This document shows positions 1,287 through 34,851 of a DNA stretch of 35,095 nucleotides, one piece after another. This DNA is from a virus: positions 1 through 35,095 of IMG/VR virus record IMGVR_UViG_3300022665_000254; one strand, written 5' to 3'. Both the position numbers and the translations under genes were made by a program. A model generated the notes under the pieces. That model was not told the origin of the DNA. It did not search any database and was given only the letters and a program-made list of their open reading frames with translations. Each line of letters starts with the position of its first letter. Position 1 is the stretch's first letter.

Positions 1287-1302
1287 GTCTCCCTCCGCTC
1301 CT

Positions 1303-1476
1303 TCATAGTCTGCACTTCCCGAACAGGATCAACTCCCCGATCTTCCACAACCGCTTGAAGACACCTCGAATGCCGCGATCGTCGAACTTCAGCCAGACTC
1401 CTTCGGCTTCCACGTGTACGTCTCTTAACACGTATCCTTGGTAGCCGATATCGCTCTTTTCGTCAGGTTTCATCAT
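1303..1476 (-). CDS. Hypothetical protein (57 aa)
   Basis: Tandem ATGs at 1476 and 1473 overlap the stop of the preceding reading frame and follow an AGAGGAAACG ribosome-binding site. The product reads MMKPDEKSDIGYQGYVLRDV and ends in a basic, Trp/Phe-containing stretch (RGVFKRLWKIGELILFGK). No known domain. The coupling and ribosome-binding site support a real gene despite its length. Confidence 0.6.
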   Translation of the reverse strand: MMKPDEKSDIGYQGYVLRDVHVEAEGVWLKFDDRGIRGVFKRLWKIGELILFGKCRL

Positions 1477-1589
1477 CGTTTCCTCTGTGCTTTGACCATC
1501 TCGAAATTGAGTTCCCTATCGAAGAACTTCCTCATGTTCTCGTCCACGAATCTCCTCAGTTTCTCAAAGATCGCGTGGCTCTTGAACAT
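1473..1589 (-). CDS. C-terminal part of the GpZ-like tail protein, in the shifted frame
   Basis: Read from its own ATG at 1589 this is a 38-residue basic helical peptide (MFKSHAIFEKLRRFVDENMR). In the same frame, open back to about 1650, the preceding residues are FPISMLQTIGVDKMF, which resembles the LPI-x-LxG-x-x-V-x-M end of the minor-tail-Z family. I therefore read it as the missing C-terminus of the gene at 1594-2016, separated by a one-base shift in a run of five Gs. There is no good ribosome-binding site directly before 1589, which argues against an independent gene. Most of it lies inside the right arm of the inverted repeat. Confidence 0.55.
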   Translation of the reverse strand: MFKSHAIFEKLRRFVDENMRKFFDRELNFEMVKAQRKR

Positions 1590-1641
1590 CTTGTCAACCC
1601 CGATCGTCTGTAACATAGAGATCGGAAACTGTGAGCGACCC
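1498..1641 (-). repeat. Right arm of the 144-bp perfect inverted repeat
   Basis: This is the exact reverse complement of bases 1-144. It covers the last codons of the frame-0 GpZ-like gene and most of the shifted-frame C-terminus. It sits inside an ordinary gene series, so this copy looks like the resident one and 1-144 like the displaced one. Confidence 0.95.
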
Positions 1642-3096: not shown

Positions 3097-3828
3097 TCAT
3101 ATTCCCGAGATCGGGCTTCGCACTCTCACTTCGTATCGCTTCTTAGGATTCGTCCACACCAATTCCGACCCCCATTTTTTCTTCAGCATCTCGATCGCCT
3201 CCGTCTCCATCTCCATCGTTCGATACGTCCTGCATCCTCCGACCGTATCATGATGATCTGTGTAGAAGGAATACTTGTTGAATCTCAATACGCATCTATG
3301 CCGATACAATGACTGAAGACTGAAATCGTAGTCTTCTTTCAACCGAAATCGCTCATCGAATCGCTGACCGTCATCGATGATTCCCATCAGATGTCCCGCG
3401 ATGAAGCTTTGAAGAGAGAATGGACTGTATTCTCGATAGGTCTTCCCATCATTCGTCACTTGAAAACCCCATAGATTCGTCCCGATCGCCTCCGCCATGT
3501 CGAACATATTCAACACGAGATGAAGGAATCTTTCAAAATCGACTGGTATACCGACTCCAGGTTTTCCCTTCTCGAACTTCGCGAATACTTTGAGATCGTC
3601 ATCCATCATTAGAATTCTTTTTTCACCCATTGTCCATGATCGATTCAGGATCCAATTTCTTGTTCTCGTTATACCTACAATCTCATCTGGAACTCCGACA
3701 ACTACTTTGTGATGCTTCTTGTAATCTTTCTCTTCCGATTCCGGACAGAATATCGCAACACTTTCCGTCACGAATCTCGTCGTCTTCACCATTCCCGCTC
3801 GACCCTTCGATGGTATCGCGAAGATCAC
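3097..3828 (-). CDS. TAGT/GREB1-like glycosyltransferase
   Basis: The protein starts VIFAIPSKGRAGMVKTTRF, the IPS-x-x-R-A nucleotide-sugar-binding start typical of the TET-associated glycosyltransferase (TAGT/GREB1) group. A VPDEIVGITRTRNWIL segment follows, then RILMMDDDL (acidic metal-binding triad at about residues 76-78), then LKEDYDFSLQS near 163. I choose the GTG at 3828: it overlaps the methyltransferase stop as GTGA and has an AAGGGGG site, whereas the longer frame from 3864 overlaps by 40 bp. Phage members have been linked to glycosylation of modified bases (established family knowledge). No TET-like oxygenase or base hydroxymethylase is in this window, so the acceptor is unproven and could be another molecule. 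Confidence 0.65.
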   Translation of the reverse strand: MIFAIPSKGRAGMVKTTRFVTESVAIFCPESEEKDYKKHHKVVVGVPDEIVGITRTRNWILNRSWTMGEKRILMMDDDLKVFAKFEKGKPGVGIPVDFERFLHLVLNMFDMAEAIGTNLWGFQVTNDGKTYREYSPFSLQSFIAGHLMGIIDDGQRFDERFRLKEDYDFSLQSLYRHRCVLRFNKYSFYTDHHDTVGGCRTYRTMEMETEAIEMLKKKWGSELVWTNPKKRYEVRVRSPISGI

Positions 3829-4496
3829 GATGCCCCCTTCCACGCATATATCATTCTGGTCCAAGCACGATCAATCTTCTCTCGATTCGGCTCTTTGACG
3901 CCATCAAAATTCTTTTTCAAAATCTCGACCGTCTCGTGGTAATGATCCAATCGCGTCTGTCTTGAAATCATGTTGAAATGGAATTCTATGGCGATTCTCT
4001 CGACTCCTGACCAATCCTTGATCGCTGGAAGGAGAATGATCTCCGATCCTTCACAATCCATTTTGATTTTATTCGGCTGAATCCGATCTATTACACCATT
4101 GACATCTCTTGCGATCACTCTGATACATTCGCGTCCTCGTTTTTTGAGCGTCGTCCCGTTCCCCGTATTTGTCTTGGCCAGATAGAAATCAATCCATCCA
4201 TCCTCACACCACAACGCCGAATCAATAGACGTGACATTGACGATCGCATTCAACGCCAGATTTTTCCTTAATAATTCAAACTCTCGCGGACTTGGTTCGA
4301 ATGCCCAAATATGTCTGACGAACTTCGACGCAAGAATCGAGAATGATCCGATATGAGCTCCCACGTCCAGAACTCGATCTGATCTTCTCAACTTTAATGG
4401 TTTAAGATAGAGATTTTCCCTCGCGACTTCACGAATGATGATCTCATCATATTTTCCCTCACGTATCTCAAACTTCCCTCCCTTCACCATGATCAT
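3825..4496 (-). CDS. FkbM-family SAM-dependent methyltransferase
   Basis: SAM-binding motif I is clear (RVLDVGAHIGSFSILASKF, residues 41-59). It is followed by the acidic AFEPSP motif at 65-70 and the FkbM signature IKMDCEGSE near 144-152, then IAIEFHF. These are the diagnostic blocks of Methyltransf_21/FkbM O-methyltransferases, which act on sugars and other small acceptors. The ATG at 4496 overlaps the ParB-like stop as ATGA; a second ATG lies two codons in. Its coupling to the glycosyltransferase suggests that it methylates the sugar that enzyme adds, or a precursor; this is inference. Confidence 0.8.
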   Translation of the reverse strand: MIMVKGGKFEIREGKYDEIIIREVARENLYLKPLKLRRSDRVLDVGAHIGSFSILASKFVRHIWAFEPSPREFELLRKNLALNAIVNVTSIDSALWCEDGWIDFYLAKTNTGNGTTLKKRGRECIRVIARDVNGVIDRIQPNKIKMDCEGSEIILLPAIKDWSGVERIAIEFHFNMISRQTRLDHYHETVEILKKNFDGVKEPNREKIDRAWTRMIYAWKGAS

Positions 4497-5161
4497 TTCC
4501 TTGTCCCTAAGACTTTCAACAGAATCTTCCCTTCAATCACTCTTCCGATTCCCGTCCTCATATATCCGACCCTCGAATCCAACGCCTTCACGCCTTCGAT
4601 CGCCAACTTTTCCTCCACGACATTCCAATCGAATGAATTATTGAACACGAAGACAACGTAATTCGACTCCTCCATCATCTCCGTCGTGAACGCGATCTCC
4701 GGAGACTCCTCTTCCTTCTTCTTTCCTTCACCCAGATCGTCCATCAAATCATCGATATTCAACCCTTCAATTCTTTCTCTCTCAACGCCTTCCAGATTCG
4801 CAATCACCTTCTCCGTGATGAAATCACCTTCAATGAACGGATTGTTTGCCGCTATGTTAGCCGCCGCATGCTTCAACTCATCCCAATCAACCAATCGAAC
4901 CGGAAATCGCGCTCCCGTAGGAAGTACAACGGAATTATTTTCAATCTTTACTTGATCTCCAAATCTCTCCAACATGACCTTGATTCTCTGGTGACCAGAT
5001 ACGAGACATTCATTTCTGATATTCAATACAATTCCCGAAAGATCACCGAACTCCTCGATCGATACCTTTAGACCCCGTAACGCCTTGCTGCCTATCTTCC
5101 GAGCGTTGCTTTCCCATGGTTTCAGTTCTTCGACTGATTTCAGTTTGTGGTTCAGATTCAT
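4493..5161 (-). CDS. ParB/sulfiredoxin-like domain protein
   Basis: The N-terminal 120 residues match the ParB-like nuclease domain common in phages: the first strand carries ELKPWESNARKI, then LKVSIEEFGDLSGIVLNIRNE, the conserved VSGHQR box, then VDWDELKHAAANIAANNPFIEGDF. The C-terminal 100 residues (Lys/Glu linker then YVVFVFNNSFDW) are not recognised. A GAGGAGAATTGG site precedes the ATG at 5161. Such phage proteins can be DNA-binding, nuclease or nucleotide-using enzymes. It sits just downstream of the candidate RNA at 5178-5588 and heads the methyltransferase/glycosyltransferase group. Confidence 0.8.
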   Translation of the reverse strand: MNLNHKLKSVEELKPWESNARKIGSKALRGLKVSIEEFGDLSGIVLNIRNECLVSGHQRIKVMLERFGDQVKIENNSVVLPTGARFPVRLVDWDELKHAAANIAANNPFIEGDFITEKVIANLEGVERERIEGLNIDDLMDDLGEGKKKEEESPEIAFTTEMMEESNYVVFVFNNSFDWNVVEEKLAIEGVKALDSRVGYMRTGIGRVIEGKILLKVLGTRK

Positions 5162-5177
5162 CCAATTCTCCTCGATT

Positions 5178-5588
5178 TCAGCTCCAGAGGGTTGAGGTCG
5201 GTTCTCGCCCGCCCCTCCTCAAGGATGGTTCTCGCCGATTCATCATTCGTCGCCACGCTTTCGTTTTCGTGCCCGGCTATTTTTCAGCCCCGTCGGGTAT
5301 CGATCGTCCTTCATCGCTGATGGTAGGCCGGGGTTCTCGTCGGCCTTCTCGCGTGGTTGCGCTCAGTCTCGCGCCCCCTTCATCGCTTTCCCATCAGTCC
5401 CCGTCCCGCTCATCGCAGGAAGAACCGCAGGCATCTACTTGCGCGCCCTTTCGGGTGACTCCGCGCTTTCGTCGTCTCATCCTACTTACGCGACGATCTG
5501 TTCCAACTTCACAACTCCATACCCTACCGCCGTAAGTGACCAGCATCCGCGAACTCTGAACGAGTCGCTCCTGCTCTGTCACCTACGG
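5178..5588 (-). ncRNA. Candidate structured non-coding RNA
   Basis: About 440 bp between two genes holds no convincing frame, unusual for this compact genome. Read on the minus strand it has many self-complementary segments. An 11-bp helix (one G-U) pairs 5578-5588 with 5530-5540 and encloses a further hairpin at 5549-5568. GCGCG/CGCGC (5462-5466 with 5441-5445) is stacked on a CCC-GAAA-GGG tetraloop stem (5446-5455). Other helices are 5341-5346 with 5325-5330, 5286-5289 with 5275-5278, and 5217-5222 with 5192-5197. CGAGAACC occurs three times (5332-5339, 5227-5234, 5200-5207). I see no group I or II core, tRNA fold or OMEGA-type partner gene. Only short arginine-rich frames (e.g. 5394-5582) exist here. 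Confidence 0.45.
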
Positions 5589-5603
5589 TTTCGGGGATTC
5601 AGG

Positions 5604-5783
5604 TTAAATCCTTGCCTTGATTGCTCTATCGACGATTTTCTTGAATAACATCGCGGCGTCTGCTTCTGTCAGATTTTTTTCTTCTAAATCCTTCTTGATT
5701 TCGGAATGTATTTTGTCCAATCTTTCCCGCGTGGTCGCCCAATCGATTTTCGTTGTCAATTCGTCATATCTGTTTGACATCAT
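5604..5783 (-). CDS. Small helical protein resembling the RecT C-terminal tail (59 aa)
   Basis: Tandem ATGs at 5783 and 5780 follow a GAGGACGG site, ten bases after the RecT stop. The 59-residue product is charged and helical, starting MMSNRYDELTTKIDWATTRE. Its second half (LTEADAAMLFKKIVDRA) resembles the last helices of RecT just upstream (LRQKDADVLFGKIKEKF): same spacing of the Asp-Ala, Leu-Phe and Lys-Ile pairs. It could be a free-standing copy of the RecT tail, perhaps binding the same partner. No named family. Confidence 0.7.
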   Translation of the reverse strand: MMSNRYDELTTKIDWATTRERLDKIHSEIKKDLEEKNLTEADAAMLFKKIVDRAIKARI

Positions 5784-5793
5784 CCGTCCTCAA

Positions 5794-7053
5794 TCAATCT
5801 TTTTTCAGCTTACCGAATTTCTCCTTGATCTTGCCGAACAGAACGTCCGCGTCCTTCTGTCTCAGCAATCCCTCCGCGAGATTCCGCTCGACTCCCAACT
5901 GCATTTGATCCAACTTCACGCTTGAATTCGATTCAACGATCATGCGTAGTAGATTCTCATTTTTTTGACTGAGCTTGTCTTCCTCGATCTTACTCAACAC
6001 TTCCGCATCCCTCTTCTTCAATTCAGCCGTCGTCTCGGCAGGTATCTTTGCTTCCGACTTCTCTTTCTTCGTCTCTTCTTTTACCTTGGGAACCGTGACA
6101 AGTCCCTCGGTATCCGTGTCTTCCGCCGTCAGGTGTGTCTCGTAGATTCCTTCTTCTTCACCGGCTGGTTGTCGGACTTCTTCCATCTCCGCATGTTTCA
6201 CTTCTCCCGTCTCGTCGTCGACATAGAGTTGCTGAGGGACGTCCGCTCCCACCAACTCATCCAACTCCGCCGCCCTCTCGAATTCGACCGAAAGCGGAAG
6301 GTACTTGGCTAATCTCCTCACGACCGTCTTCTTGCACATCTCGTCAACGTGAATCGACCAGATAGAATGCTGTCGATCCCTCGCCCACGATTTACTCAAG
6401 GCCCGGACACGCTCGATCTCCGTCCTGTCCATGACGTCGAAGATCGTCCGCTTATCGATATCCGCGTATGCGTATGCGTAAATCGGGAATTGAGAATCCG
6501 GTGACTTGAGAACTTCCTCTTGATTCGGATTGGTGGGCCGGGGCGTGGGTCTGTGTTTGAGGAAGGCGCTCGTGCCGTACTCGAACTCGAAAAAATCCCA
6601 TTCGTGGACGACCTTGCTCGTGATCAACGCTCCGCACTTGGATGCCAGCTTGATCAACCCCCTGTAACCTACGAGGAATTGCGCTTGTCGCTTGAATGGC
6701 ACAAGGTATGCTTCTCCGAGCGTCTTGTCAAGGCGAAGATCGAGTTGAACCGCCTGAATCACCGCTGCTGCGATTGACTGGGGCGTACATTCAAGCAACT
6801 TGGATTCGCTTCTCAATAACGTCAACGCCGTCGAGATCAGATAGTCGACGCTGACTCTCCTGTTCGGGATCGCCTTGTCCAACGTGGGCTTGATCTTCTC
6901 GAACAACTCCTTCACCCTTTTCCCCTTCTCCTCGACCTCCGCAAATTCGTTCTTCGTTTGCTGTCTCGCGATCGCCGCGTTCGTTTCGTTCTGACGCCTT
7001 GTCTTCACGTCAGCGAGACGTTCGGCCACACCTTTCTCCGTGTCCGTCGACAT
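5794..7053 (-). CDS. recT: RecT-family single-strand annealing protein
   Basis: Residues about 45-265 match RecT: ALTLLRSESKLLECTPQSIAA, then AVQLDLRLDKTLGEAYLVPF, the GYRGLIKLASKCG box, and a C-terminal core with KTVVRRLAKYLPL. RecT coats single-stranded DNA and anneals homologous strands. The remaining 150 residues are an acidic, Lys/Glu-rich linker and a helical tail, making the protein (419 aa) much longer than typical RecT (about 270). AGGAGGAGTGAAAA precedes the ATG at 7053. The YqaJ exonuclease gene ends four bases upstream, the classic exonuclease/annealase pair for phage recombination. Confidence 0.93.
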   Translation of the reverse strand: MSTDTEKGVAERLADVKTRRQNETNAAIARQQTKNEFAEVEEKGKRVKELFEKIKPTLDKAIPNRRVSVDYLISTALTLLRSESKLLECTPQSIAAAVIQAVQLDLRLDKTLGEAYLVPFKRQAQFLVGYRGLIKLASKCGALITSKVVHEWDFFEFEYGTSAFLKHRPTPRPTNPNQEEVLKSPDSQFPIYAYAYADIDKRTIFDVMDRTEIERVRALSKSWARDRQHSIWSIHVDEMCKKTVVRRLAKYLPLSVEFERAAELDELVGADVPQQLYVDDETGEVKHAEMEEVRQPAGEEEGIYETHLTAEDTDTEGLVTVPKVKEETKKEKSEAKIPAETTAELKKRDAEVLSKIEEDKLSQKNENLLRMIVESNSSVKLDQMQLGVERNLAEGLLRQKDADVLFGKIKEKFGKLKKD

Positions 7054-7056
7054 TTT

Positions 7057-7989
7057 TCACTCCTCCTCTCGCTTGATGATGAACTGCCGAGATTGCTTCT
7101 CGGTCATATAAATCGTGCATACTTCCGGGATTCGTGCCTTCATGGCTTTCAAATCTATGGTGGTTCTCTTGATCGTCTTCCACGTCGCGAGGATTCGACC
7201 CTCTGACGACAATATCTCCGCCTCTCCCATCCGCAATTTCAATGCGTCCTGAATCGTCTTTTCGGTATGCTCGAATCTTCGCCTCCGTTCCACCAACTGT
7301 TTCAATTCTGTCACCAATTCGACACTTGTGACATCCGCCTCGACGATCGCCTCCGGCTTCGACGTCACCAACTCGTAATCTCTCACCGTCGACGCTGGCG
7401 CCAACTTTGTACATACGTTGTCACTCCAGAACTCGAATAGAATTCTATTCTGCCGTTCGATCTGATCTTCGTCCGGTTTGATCTCGAACATCTGCAATTT
7501 CCTACCATCGATCAATATCACGATCACTCCCCAAAGAAATCCAGTGACGTAGAATTGATGCTGAACCTGCACGAAATGTTCAATCGGTATCGCTTCCTTC
7601 CACGTCTTTGCATAGAACGACGAGGTGGTTTTGATCTCAAGGATTCCCGGTCCGATACCATTCCCGCGTCCCCAAATCACCCGATCCAGATTGCAACGCA
7701 TGAAGGGCGTCGTAGGATGCACCCTGATCTTGTGGTCTCTCCTCACCAAATCCCCTGTCCTCTCCGCGTACGCCTGCGCCACGACCGACTCTAATCGCCT
7801 TCCCATCTCCATCGCCTCGTTGTCTTCCTGTTCGATCAGATCAGTCGACGTCTTCTCCTTCCACACTTCCAACGGGCTCCTCCACCGAGATAGTCCGAGA
7901 ATCGCCGCCACGTCCGATGATCCGATTCCCTGCTGTCTCATCCTCAACCAAGTTTCTTGATTCACTCCCTTCGTCGATATATGATTCAA
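7057..7989 (-). CDS. YqaJ-family (lambda-exonuclease-like) 5'-3' exonuclease
   Basis: The 310-residue protein has the YqaJ viral recombinase layout: an N-terminal W-x-x-x-R-Q-x-GIGSSDVAAILGLSRW box, MGRRLE at 62-67, catalytic Asp at about 102 (NLDRV), LEIKT at 117-121 (Glu and Lys of the PD-(D/E)XK core), and QVQHQFYVTG at 141-150. It would resect duplex ends to give 3' tails for RecT, encoded next. A TTG at 7989 with GGAGGGAGACGAGAG upstream is my start; a GTG nine codons in is an alternative. Its first 149 bases lie inside the end of the preceding gene in another frame. Confidence 0.92.
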   Translation of the reverse strand: MNHISTKGVNQETWLRMRQQGIGSSDVAAILGLSRWRSPLEVWKEKTSTDLIEQEDNEAMEMGRRLESVVAQAYAERTGDLVRRDHKIRVHPTTPFMRCNLDRVIWGRGNGIGPGILEIKTTSSFYAKTWKEAIPIEHFVQVQHQFYVTGFLWGVIVILIDGRKLQMFEIKPDEDQIERQNRILFEFWSDNVCTKLAPASTVRDYELVTSKPEAIVEADVTSVELVTELKQLVERRRRFEHTEKTIQDALKLRMGEAEILSSEGRILATWKTIKRTTIDLKAMKARIPEVCTIYMTEKQSRQFIIKREEE

Positions 7990-8287: not shown

Positions 8288-8309
8288 CTCGTCCTCCGAC
8301 AATTAAAGA

Positions 8310-8379
8310 TGCGCGGAGTCTCATTTCGGTAAGTGCGTAGGTCTTAAAGAAAGGAGACCTACCTGAGAGCATCCGCGCA
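8310..8379 (-). promoter_or_regulatory. Three-helix RNA element carrying the complement of two ribosome-binding sites
   Basis: In the 99-base gap between the HTH gene and the membrane coiled-coil gene, the minus transcript can form three nested helices: an 8-bp outer stem (8310-8317 with 8372-8379), a 5-bp stem (8319-8323 with 8364-8368), and an 8-bp hairpin (8337-8344 with 8355-8362) with a 10-nt pyrimidine-rich loop. Bases 8351-8363 on the plus strand are identical to the 13-base mRNA leader just before the ATG at 8977, and 8348-8360 match 13 bases of the leader of the gene at 9292. The transcript of this element is therefore antisense to both ribosome-binding sites. The element also precedes the site at 8292-8297. 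No poly-U tail, so not an ordinary terminator. Confidence 0.5.
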
Positions 8380-8386
8380 CCCAAAT

Positions 8387-30704: not shown

Positions 30705-30723
30705 TCAGATTCCCACTGAACGT

Positions 30724-30757
30724 AAAAAAACCCGACCCCCGCATGCGGATCGGGCTT
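30724..30757 (-). terminator. Intrinsic transcription terminator
   Basis: On the minus strand a G/C-rich hairpin is followed by seven T residues (30730-30724). The outer stem pairs 30750-30754 with 30731-30735 (GCCCGA-type), and the inner stem pairs 30745-30748 with 30739-30742. A short T run follows. It ends the transcript from the promoter at 30803-30831 and also that from the upstream coiled-coil genes. The next gene starts 20 bases later, so expression of the portal region needs read-through or antitermination. Confidence 0.85.
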
Positions 30758-30796
30758 TTCAATCAACGAACGAAACAGAGGCGCGGAGTGCGCCGT
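30724..30796 (-). ncRNA. Candidate short RNA between promoter and terminator (about 73 nt)
   Basis: From the predicted start near 30796 to the terminator is about 73 nt with no gene. The RNA would begin with a GGCGC-ACTCC-GCGCC hairpin (30780-30794), a single-stranded linker (TTTCGTTCGTTGATTG), and the terminator hairpin. This is the layout of a small regulatory RNA, or of a leader whose end controls entry into the structural genes. I see no obvious target. Confidence 0.45.
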
Positions 30797-31845: not shown

Positions 31846-34800
31846 TCACCAGTTGTGCACCCATCCTCTCCGTCGTCCCTTCAAGCGAGCCGCGGCCAAT
31901 GGTCGCCTCCGTCCTTCCTCTGGTTTCCGTTCGTCCTTCTTCGCTTTCTCCGCGCTCTCCGTCAACGCTTCTGCGATCCTCTCCACGTTCGCGTTCAAGA
32001 GCGTGAACGCCGCGAGCGCGTACGTCTCGCAATTTCCCGCAATGAAACTCTTGCCATTTCGACGGCAAATAAGCGTTGCATTGGGAACTGTGGCGCAATA
32101 GACCTTCCCGTTGTAGATCACACGTCGTCCGATGAATTCCCGCTTGCCATTCCCACCTCCATCAAGCGATCCACGCTTTGCCTTGCATTCTGTAACATGG
32201 TATTGCGTGCGAGTGTTTTTGCCAGTTCGTCCTCGGATCAGATAGGGTTGAGCTGATTTTGTGTGTATGTTGCTGGCGCATCCGATCTTGATGAAGAGTT
32301 CCTGAATGTCATCGGCCAATCGCTGACTGATTGTCGCGTATGTACGAAATGGCCGTTGTCCCGGCCTTCGTTGTGTCCAACCATCTCCCGAAATCGCGGC
32401 ATCGAGGAAGCGTTCGATGATTTCTGGGGATGCGTCCTTGATCCATTGTGGCACTCGCTTATTGATTGCGCCGTGACCGCATTCTCGAACCAGATTGAAC
32501 GCATCCTTCCGTGTGATGATTATTTGCCGAGCTTGAGCAACGTAGGAACGCCAGCCAAGTCTCTTGATGAGCGCGTTGATTCGATCTTGTTTGATGCCGG
32601 CATTCTGACTGATGATCACGCGGTATCGAACATTGCCCTGTGTCCGCGACCGCTGAGAGGATGAATGGCCCTCAGATACGTACCATCCGAAAAATTCAGC
32701 CGAATCTCCTTGAATGTGACGGTCCACGGAATGATTTCCTATCCAGTGCGTAGTCAACTTGAGCGTGTGATGAATCGTCAAATCTTCCGCCGCAACAATC
32801 CCATCTGGTGGCGTAAGATTCCAACGTCGCAAGCCGTTTCCAATGGCTTCCTGTCTCTTTTTCGCGGCCACCATGCGGTGCCTCGGAGTCGCCATGATGT
32901 CTAATCGGCGACCGCTGAAATGGATCAATTCGCCATCATAGTCTCTGACAATCAGATGCAACGGTCTTTGATATTCAAGCTGATCAACTGCAAGATTGAC
33001 AGTCGCCAATGCGTCGATTTTCTCAAGATCGGCAAATCGCTTCCAGCCATTCTTGGTAAGTACCTCAGTCTGATCGTCGAAACAATCGAGCGCCTCGTTC
33101 CTCGCCCTGATCTTCCGCCACACCCTCGTCGGAAAGTTATCCCTTGAGAACTTCACCACCTGTTTCTCCGCCGTCAACTGACTCAGATACTCCTCATCCG
33201 CGAAGGCGTTGAAGTGCATCTTCCCCGGTCCGTCCTCCTCGATCACCAATCTCGAATATATCAACTCCTTCACCGTATCGACGCCGATGAGGAATAGGGC
33301 GACTCTCTGCCGATTGTTCCGAGATGGTCGCCCCACCACCGGCCTGCCTCCGCCCGCCATACCCTTCACAGCGAACGTCCTGCGAGCGGAGCTTCCCCTT
33401 CGCTTCACGTACGCGTACACGTTCTGTGTGAAATGTCCGCCGCTATCCACGCACGTCGATGCGATCCTCAACTTGACGCCGCTCTCGTGAGGCCACTCCC
33501 GGCCAAGAAGGTCATCGAGCAACGCCCAGACAGACGAATGTCCGGGCGATCCGTACAGCGTCTTGTACTCGACGAGCCAACTCTCATCCGCTTTCCCCCA
33601 CGCCTTCACGACGACTTCCAATCTATCATCCTGCACGTCGACCCCGCACGTGAGGACCACGCCGCCACTTGGAATCGAAACGTAGTCCTCAACTCGTTTG
33701 ACGAGTGCATCGTGCGAGATCGTGTAACTCTCCTCGTCCTCCCATACCTCTCCCGCCGTCGTATTCACCCAGACCCTCAGCGTCTCCGTTCGCTTCTTCG
33801 CTTCGAGATGATCCTTCACGATCTCCATCCACGACGACCAAGGCGAATATAATTCGTTGATATGGAACCCCGCATGATGTTCCACCTCCGGTCTCATCGC
33901 CTTCCACGCACCACGCCTCACCACTTCATCCCGTTCGTCTTCACCTATCTCCGCGCCGCAATTCTCGCAGGAATAGTAAGCCCATGACCCGTTTTCATTG
34001 TCGAATTTCAGGAACCCGCGATCGACTCTGCCGTTCTTCAACGTCTTCCAGAATGTCGATGCCGGAGAAAATAGCAGGACCTGCCTGTGCTTGCATTTCG
34101 GGCATGGTACGAAGAAATGCCTCTGATCGGATTGGTCCCACTCGAACTCGATCCTCGATATCCCCTTCACGCTCGGCGTCGAAGTCAGGATGATCTTCCT
34201 ATTCCAGAATGTTTTCGTCCGCTTCGTGCCGAGCTTAACGGGGTCTCCCTCCGATCCTGCACTCGGAGGATATCGATCGACTTCATCAAAAATGACGATC
34301 CTGATTGGTCTCGCAGCCAGAGAAGCCGGAGAATTCGCTCCTGCCATCGTGATATGACCGCCCGGGAACGTCTTATGCAACGTCTCGTTCGTCGAATCCT
34401 TCGCCCTCGGGTCTTGCACCAAGCCTCGCAAACAGACCGTATCCCTGAACATTGGCATCAATCTATCTTTCGAGAACGACCTCGCCATATCCAATGTCGG
34501 TTGGATGACTAATATCGGACTCGGATCATGTTTCACGTGGAACGCTATGATGTTCTCGATCACCGACGTCTTGCCAATCTGACCGGAACTCATGATCATC
34601 TGAGTCTCGATCATTGGATCCATCGTCGCATCCATCATCTCCCGTTGATATTCCGCCCGATCCGTTCTCCACTGACCCGGCTCCGACGAACTCTCCGGAC
34701 TCAACTGCCGATTCTCATCCGCCCATCCGCTCACCGTCAACTTAGGCGGTGGCTTCATTCTCGCCCATGCTCTCGGTAACGCGCCTCTTATAAGTTCTCG

Positions 34801-34851
34801 GAGCGCTTCTGGCGGCGATGGGTATCCTTGAGATTTCATGTAATGCCTCAT
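31846..34851 (-). CDS. terL: Terminase large subunit (GpA family) interrupted by an intein
   Basis: The two exteins (residues 1-589 and 941-1001) add up to 650 residues, normal for GpA-family TerL. In order: LTVSGWADENRQLSPE (start of the conserved part), a Walker A-like SSGQIGKTS at 88-96, Walker B VIFDEVDRYP at 187-196, two CxxC pairs (CPKCKHRQ and CENCGAEI), and the nuclease start GVDVQDDRLEV. The conserved NEALDC motif is split after NEALD by the intein, and CETYALAA follows. The end is RRRGWVHNW. A weak site precedes 34851; ATG at 34839 with GAGG is a good alternative. It overlaps the TerS gene by about 110 bp. Confidence 0.92.
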   Translation of the reverse strand: MRHYMKSQGYPSPPEALRELIRGALPRAWARMKPPPKLTVSGWADENRQLSPESSSEPGQWRTDRAEYQREMMDATMDPMIETQMIMSSGQIGKTSVIENIIAFHVKHDPSPILVIQPTLDMARSFSKDRLMPMFRDTVCLRGLVQDPRAKDSTNETLHKTFPGGHITMAGANSPASLAARPIRIVIFDEVDRYPPSAGSEGDPVKLGTKRTKTFWNRKIILTSTPSVKGISRIEFEWDQSDQRHFFVPCPKCKHRQVLLFSPASTFWKTLKNGRVDRGFLKFDNENGSWAYYSCENCGAEIGEDERDEVVRRGAWKAMRPEVEHHAGFHINELYSPWSSWMEIVKDHLEAKKRTETLRVWVNTTAGEVWEDEESYTISHDALVKRVEDYVSIPSGGVVLTCGVDVQDDRLEVVVKAWGKADESWLVEYKTLYGSPGHSSVWALLDDLLGREWPHESGVKLRIASTCVDSGGHFTQNVYAYVKRRGSSARRTFAVKGMAGGGRPVVGRPSRNNRQRVALFLIGVDTVKELIYSRLVIEEDGPGKMHFNAFADEEYLSQLTAEKQVVKFSRDNFPTRVWRKIRARNEALDCFDDQTEVLTKNGWKRFADLEKIDALATVNLAVDQLEYQRPLHLIVRDYDGELIHFSGRRLDIMATPRHRMVAAKKRQEAIGNGLRRWNLTPPDGIVAAEDLTIHHTLKLTTHWIGNHSVDRHIQGDSAEFFGWYVSEGHSSSQRSRTQGNVRYRVIISQNAGIKQDRINALIKRLGWRSYVAQARQIIITRKDAFNLVRECGHGAINKRVPQWIKDASPEIIERFLDAAISGDGWTQRRPGQRPFRTYATISQRLADDIQELFIKIGCASNIHTKSAQPYLIRGRTGKNTRTQYHVTECKAKRGSLDGGGNGKREFIGRRVIYNGKVYCATVPNATLICRRNGKSFIAGNCETYALAAFTLLNANVERIAEALTESAEKAKKDERKPEEGRRRPLAAARLKGRRRGWVHNW
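32032..33084 (-). other. Intein with LAGLIDADG homing endonuclease (351 aa) inside TerL
   Basis: Residues 590-940 of the TerL frame. It starts CFDDQTEVLTKNGWKRFADL (Cys1, block A), has TPRH (block B, Thr66 and His69), LAGLIDADG-like FFGWYVSEGH at 131-140 and FLDAAISGDGW at 226-236, and ends VYCATVPNATLICRRNG then FIAGN before Cys941. So the last Asn and the +1 Cys needed for splicing are present, but the penultimate residue is Gly, not the usual His. The site is the NEALD/C motif, a conserved functional part of terminase. The endonuclease may still be active. Confidence 0.9.

Follow-up and report, generated by a model that had tools for sequence, protein, structure and literature searches.

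The window analysed here, the whole 35,095-bp stretch of a viral record, carries nearly all of its genes on the minus strand. Within one minus-strand operon the order of transcription is a RecE-like exonuclease, a RecT-like annealing protein, a 59-aa ORF, a 442-bp gap, a ParB-like protein, an FkbM-type methyltransferase and a TAGT glycosyltransferase (TET-associated glycosyltransferase family). The gap, bounded upstream by the 59-aa RecT-tail-like ORF and downstream by the ParB-like gene, is the largest empty interval of the operon, and the segment that drew attention (5178-5588) lies inside it. The coordinates of all features are collected in Table 1. Comparison of the 59-aa ORF with the adjacent RecT suggests a possible duplication of the RecT tail.

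Table 1. Genes and sequence features in and around the gene-free interval, in window coordinates.
Feature	Position	Strand	Details
RecE-like (YqaJ) exonuclease	7057-7989	-	PF09588, E 1.7e-36
RecT-like annealing protein	5794-7053	-	PF03837, E 2e-35
59-aa ORF, like C-terminal tail of RecT	5604-5783	-	upstream flank
Non-coding intergenic interval, 442 bp	5162-5603	-	GC 0.59; 63% purine on minus strand; six frames without coding signal
ParB-like protein	4493-5161	-	phrog_620, E 2.3e-16; downstream flank
FkbM-type methyltransferase	3825-4496	-	PF05050, E 4.3e-11
TAGT glycosyltransferase	3097-3864	-	PF20691, E 2.5e-23
Strong 5′ hairpin, 59 nt	5530-5588	-	outer 11-bp helix CCGTAGGTGAC/GTCACTTACGG, then AGCA/TGCT, then GCGACTC/GAGTTCGC
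Predicted multi-branched region closed by GGGTAT/ATACCC	5295-5524	-	5519-5524 pairs with 5295-5300
CCC-GAAA-GGG tetraloop stem	5446-5455	-	can stack under GCGCG/CGCGC; local fold -12 kcal/mol
C-D′-C′-D box-like array	5363-5414	-	GATGA-12-CTGA-GATGA-13-CTGA; spacers of 12 and 13 nt
CGAGAACC, copy 1	5332-5339	-	loop of AGGCCG/CGGCCT hairpin
CGAGAACC, copy 2	5227-5234	-	
CGAGAACC, copy 3	5200-5207	-	
Shine-Dalgarno GAGGAG of ParB-like gene	5168-5173	-	3′ end of interval; identified by sequence
Second strong intergenic hairpin	8303-8386	-	upstream of RecE-RecT unit; z -4.86

The initial annotation had described the gap as free of genes, and this proved correct. Each of the six frames had a negative codon-usage score (-0.04 to -0.18); the immediate neighbours score +0.14 to +0.24 in their own frames. 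The three minus-strand frames are interrupted by 4, 8 and 8 stops, and the plus strand owes its long open frames to a pyrimidine bias. Translated pieces of the interval gave no more than marginal matches to Pfam and PHROGs families, and a comparison of its six-frame pieces with 2.7 Mb of related loci gave no match. The possibility that an ORF was lost by mutation, leaving residual sequence with chance structure, gains from a length that would suit a small phage gene and from the observation that the place ahead of ParB is taken by genes, not by a spacer, in most relatives. Residual codon bias is nevertheless absent from every frame, the database and related-locus searches gave the results just described, and a strong hairpin is not expected of decayed coding sequence, so that we regard this origin as quite improbable.

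No intrinsic terminator (GC stem plus T-run) is predicted on the minus strand between 4000 and 8500, and no sigma-70 promoter on that strand inside the interval, consistent with the placement of the gap inside the operon. Neither a tRNA nor a tmRNA was found in the whole window. Sequestration of the ParB Shine-Dalgarno sequence was considered and rejected, its accessibility (0.36) falling inside the range of other genes.

At the 5′ end of the segment lies a hairpin whose outer 11-bp helix (5588-5578 paired with 5540-5530) encloses nested stems, as the initial annotation had pointed out. This element forms 22 bp with a predicted energy of -37 kcal/mol (z -4.45), none of 200 shuffles being as stable, and its pairs have a probability of 0.99-1.0 in every sequence context tried. 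Among the 318 minus-strand 220-nt windows across the genome, the one holding the hairpin has the lowest z (-4.2); its 80-nt window ranks in the top ten of 3502 drawn from both strands. It begins ~15 nt past the stop codon of the 59-aa ORF, is not followed by a U-run, and precedes ~370 nt of further untranslated sequence.

Folding of the complete segment on the minus strand gave -162.9 kcal/mol, with z values of -3.06 and -2.7 in two shuffle sets; the corresponding values for the plus strand were -1.55 and -1.85. When the 5′ hairpin was removed, the remaining 366 nt folded with a z of -1.1, and 27 of 200 shuffles were as stable. Ensemble diversity, positional entropy and the counts of confident and long-range pairs fell in the range of shuffles, also for the whole segment. 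Nearly all of the excess folding stability therefore comes from the 59-nt hairpin: one hairpin exceeds chance, and an ornate 410-nt fold apparently does not. The description of the stretch as a large structured RNA is thus only partly supported. The segment illustrates how a single hairpin can produce a low minimum free energy over a GC-rich gap. A second gap in the window (1287-1593), considered as another structured element, showed only ordinary structure (z -1.54).

Downstream of the hairpin, the predicted fold contains a multi-branched region whose closing GGGTAT/ATACCC helix has a pair probability of 0.86-0.94. The z of this region is -2.4, a value biased by the choice of its boundaries from the fold, and long confident pairs are no more frequent in the segment than in shuffles. 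The GAAA tetraloop stem on a GC helix that had been noted earlier is present in a local fold; in the full fold its pair probability is just 0.62. The three repeats were likewise located, as copies of CGAGAACC, and few shuffles of the segment (85 of 3000) contain an 8-mer in triplicate. Other repetition comprises a recurring GCGATGA word, three copies of GGTTCTCG and two copies, 77% identical, of a 22-bp direct repeat.

A search with 4227 Rfam families (including ROOL, GOLLD, HEARO, introns and tmRNA), run at the gathering threshold and at E<=10, returned no match at gathering threshold in the window, in agreement with the earlier failure to assign the segment to a known RNA. The top sub-threshold match was to sR17, which coincides with the C-D′-C′-D array and has an E of 0.022 with a score of 20.4 bits against a gathering threshold of 36. 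The spacing of the array resembles that of archaeal C/D box sRNAs; it is the sole array of its kind in the window, and none of 5000 segment shuffles has one, in a test devised post hoc. Unlike genuine members of that class, it scores below threshold and has imperfect C boxes, which read GCGATGA and not RTGATGA. An unrelated control also gave a weak C/D match (sR44, E 0.56). Moreover, the gene products of the phage include a peptidase M15 endolysin and a GTA-type holin, which points to a peptidoglycan-containing bacterium lacking C/D machinery as the host. An archaeal-type C/D box sRNA is thus scarcely credible, and this candidate was rejected.

The initial annotation had proposed that the segment may belong to a new phage RNA family. 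Searches by blastn, nhmmer and a covariance model built on the 5′ hairpin detected no homologue among 50,697 phages and 72,556 plasmids, in ~2.7 Mb of related-gene loci or in 50 whole viral records; all of these gave short chance matches at most. The covariance model matched nothing at E<1 in any set searched except the window itself. Two gaps considered as homologues were discarded: that of locus L220 is unstructured (z +1.5) and unalignable, and that of Streptococcus phage Javan291 contains a tRNA-Tyr and not the RNA of the segment. A GGCGAGAACC-N-GGCGAGAACC pattern returned 19 matches in viral contigs, most of which were unrelated arrays or repeats within open frames; none resembled the segment. 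Separately, five loci (L266, L268, L270, L271 and L273) contain alternating GCGAGAACCC / GCGCGAGCCC arrays with a 36-nt period, possibly coding for Arg-Glu-Pro repeats.

Comparison at the protein level identified only distant relatives, the best identities being 56% for terminase and 42% for each of RecT and TAGT. Scans with the single proteins ParB, RecT and RecE found no relative in the collections searched, and a portal scan found one, at 37% identity. Judged by sequence comparison, the phage appears to be without a close relative in these collections, and the absence of a homologue is not proof.

Another possibility is a dedicated large structured RNA of a new class, either cut from the operon transcript or contained in it, which could work in trans or serve the ParB-methyltransferase-TAGT genes as a cis leader. 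The non-coding, purine-rich transcribed strand, the lower whole-segment z on that strand (about -3, vs about -1.7 on the plus strand), the confident helix closing the multi-branched region and the repeated CGAGAACC and GCGATGA words all argue for such an RNA. Stability and structural definition outside the 5′ hairpin nevertheless equal those of shuffles, and the Rfam and homologue searches were empty; on balance we consider it a possible but somewhat unlikely explanation. Its more specific form seems to us improbable, namely a lineage-specific ~440-nt RNA of two domains (the 5′ hairpin and the GGGTAT/ATACCC multi-branched domain) in which CGAGAACC loops would bind a phage or host protein and control ParB-methyltransferase-TAGT, which would make it the founding member of a new class of phage RNAs. 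The ornate RNAs ROOL and GOLLD of phages have folds supported by covariation and often lie near tRNA islands (PMC12286853). Like them, the segment is a large non-coding stretch of a phage genome; unlike them, it has no Rfam match, no homologue and no tRNA in the window, and it mostly folds as its shuffles do. If a large RNA were real, it would join the few ornate phage RNAs and tie one of them to a DNA-hypermodification cassette.

The arrangement of related loci bears on what occupies this position. Across 56 ParB-TAGT loci the median distance between ParB and the gene ahead of it is -1 bp; eight gaps exceed 100 bp, four exceed 250 bp and none exceeds 400 bp. A long spacer is not a fixed part of the ParB-TAGT hypermodification cassette, and the suggestion of a new RNA family is unsupported, since the cassette usually lacks a spacer, most of the segment folds like shuffles, and without a homologue there is neither family nor covariation. 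The position of the segment is a module boundary. Locus L173 shows RecE-RecT upstream of ParB together with a gap of 243 bp, and a terminator-like hairpin is discernible there by eye. The tRNA-Tyr of Javan291 lies in a gap of 534 bp before ParB-TAGT by that phage's own annotation, and a second tRNA-like stretch is visible by eye in the same gap (L003 5546-5850). Annotated gaps of >400 bp also occur in other phages of this kind, VP882 and ep3 among them, and unannotated genes may account for some of these. Throughout most of ~90 loci (L168-L257) the ParB-like gene adjoins TAGT, often with terminase close downstream, an arrangement that is a conserved hypermodification-packaging neighbourhood. 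The present phage adds a case in which the ParB-TAGT cassette follows a long untranslated region that is absent from most relatives.

The segment might alternatively function as DNA, as an operator, a replication origin or a set of ParB-like binding sites, given its inverted repeat and its GGTTCTCG/TTCATCGCT direct repeats. As DNA, the hairpin sequence forms a near-perfect inverted repeat on either strand (the plus-strand 80-nt window has a z of -6.0), the three GGTTCTCG copies and the 22-bp direct repeat provide further repetition, and a ParB-like gene adjoins the segment. Yet neither an AT-rich unwinding region nor a GC-skew switch was found in the interval, with its GC content of 0.59, the repeats lack regular iteron spacing, and the fold signal of the whole segment is greater on the RNA-sense strand. 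A DNA element is therefore, in our assessment, unlikely.

The segment is real; on present evidence it is most likely an ordinary regulatory spacer parting two blocks of phage genes, and not a proven new RNA family. The single explanation that we favour, tentatively, is an untranslated boundary region of the operon whose 5′ hairpin serves as an mRNA element. The segment would part a RecE-RecT-59-aa unit from a ParB-methyltransferase-TAGT unit and would be co-transcribed with them from the minus strand. Its hairpin may act as an RNase III processing site or as a 3′-end block against exonucleases that delimits the recET message, and the remaining GC-rich, purine-rich sequence would serve the ParB gene as a leader or spacer. 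This boundary reading is consistent with a non-coding gap whose excess stability is driven by a hairpin that forms in all contexts, and with a minus strand that lacks promoter and terminator within the segment. The relatives point the same way, in that some of them (L173, Javan291) likewise have a module boundary ahead of ParB and phages of like kind (VP882, ep3) have annotated gaps of comparable scale.

Intergenic hairpins that direct RNase III cleavage or stabilise mRNA are found in phage operons, among them the early and late messages of T7 and the sib element of lambda. The hairpin described here resembles these as a long, stable intergenic stem just past a stop codon with no U-run after it. 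It differs in the length of untranslated sequence that follows, and cleavage here is putative.

A second strong hairpin, on the far side of the RecE-RecT unit, lends further support to the boundary reading. It shares with the 5′ hairpin a 10-mer, CGCGGATGCT, and a 9-nt pattern, CACTTACSG; equal word sharing occurs in about 0.6% of random same-strand pairs, and the sharing was spotted post hoc. Despite these common words the two hairpins differ in architecture. The antitermination RNAs of the HK022 put sites, which sit directly after early promoters, offer a parallel in that two sequence-related hairpin elements occur in one phage genome; the parallel ends with the absence of a predicted promoter here and the unlike architectures of the two hairpins. 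Other points also weigh against a boundary region, since 442 bp is more than a processing hairpin needs, a spacer before ParB is missing from most relatives, and a spacer does not account for the CGAGAACC and GCGATGA repeats.

Elsewhere in the record, the gene for the terminase large subunit (31846-34851) contains an apparent intein at ~32035-33084, about residues 590-940, which starts with CFDDQTEVLTKNGW, ends with AGN before C and has a LAGLIDADG domain within. Positions 1-148 repeat 1494-1641 in inverted orientation with a single mismatch, which suggests that the contig end carries a fold-back or an assembly artefact. Finally, a canonical intrinsic-terminator-like hairpin with a T-run lies at 30720-30770, between two late-gene blocks, and its 80-nt window is also among the top ten.
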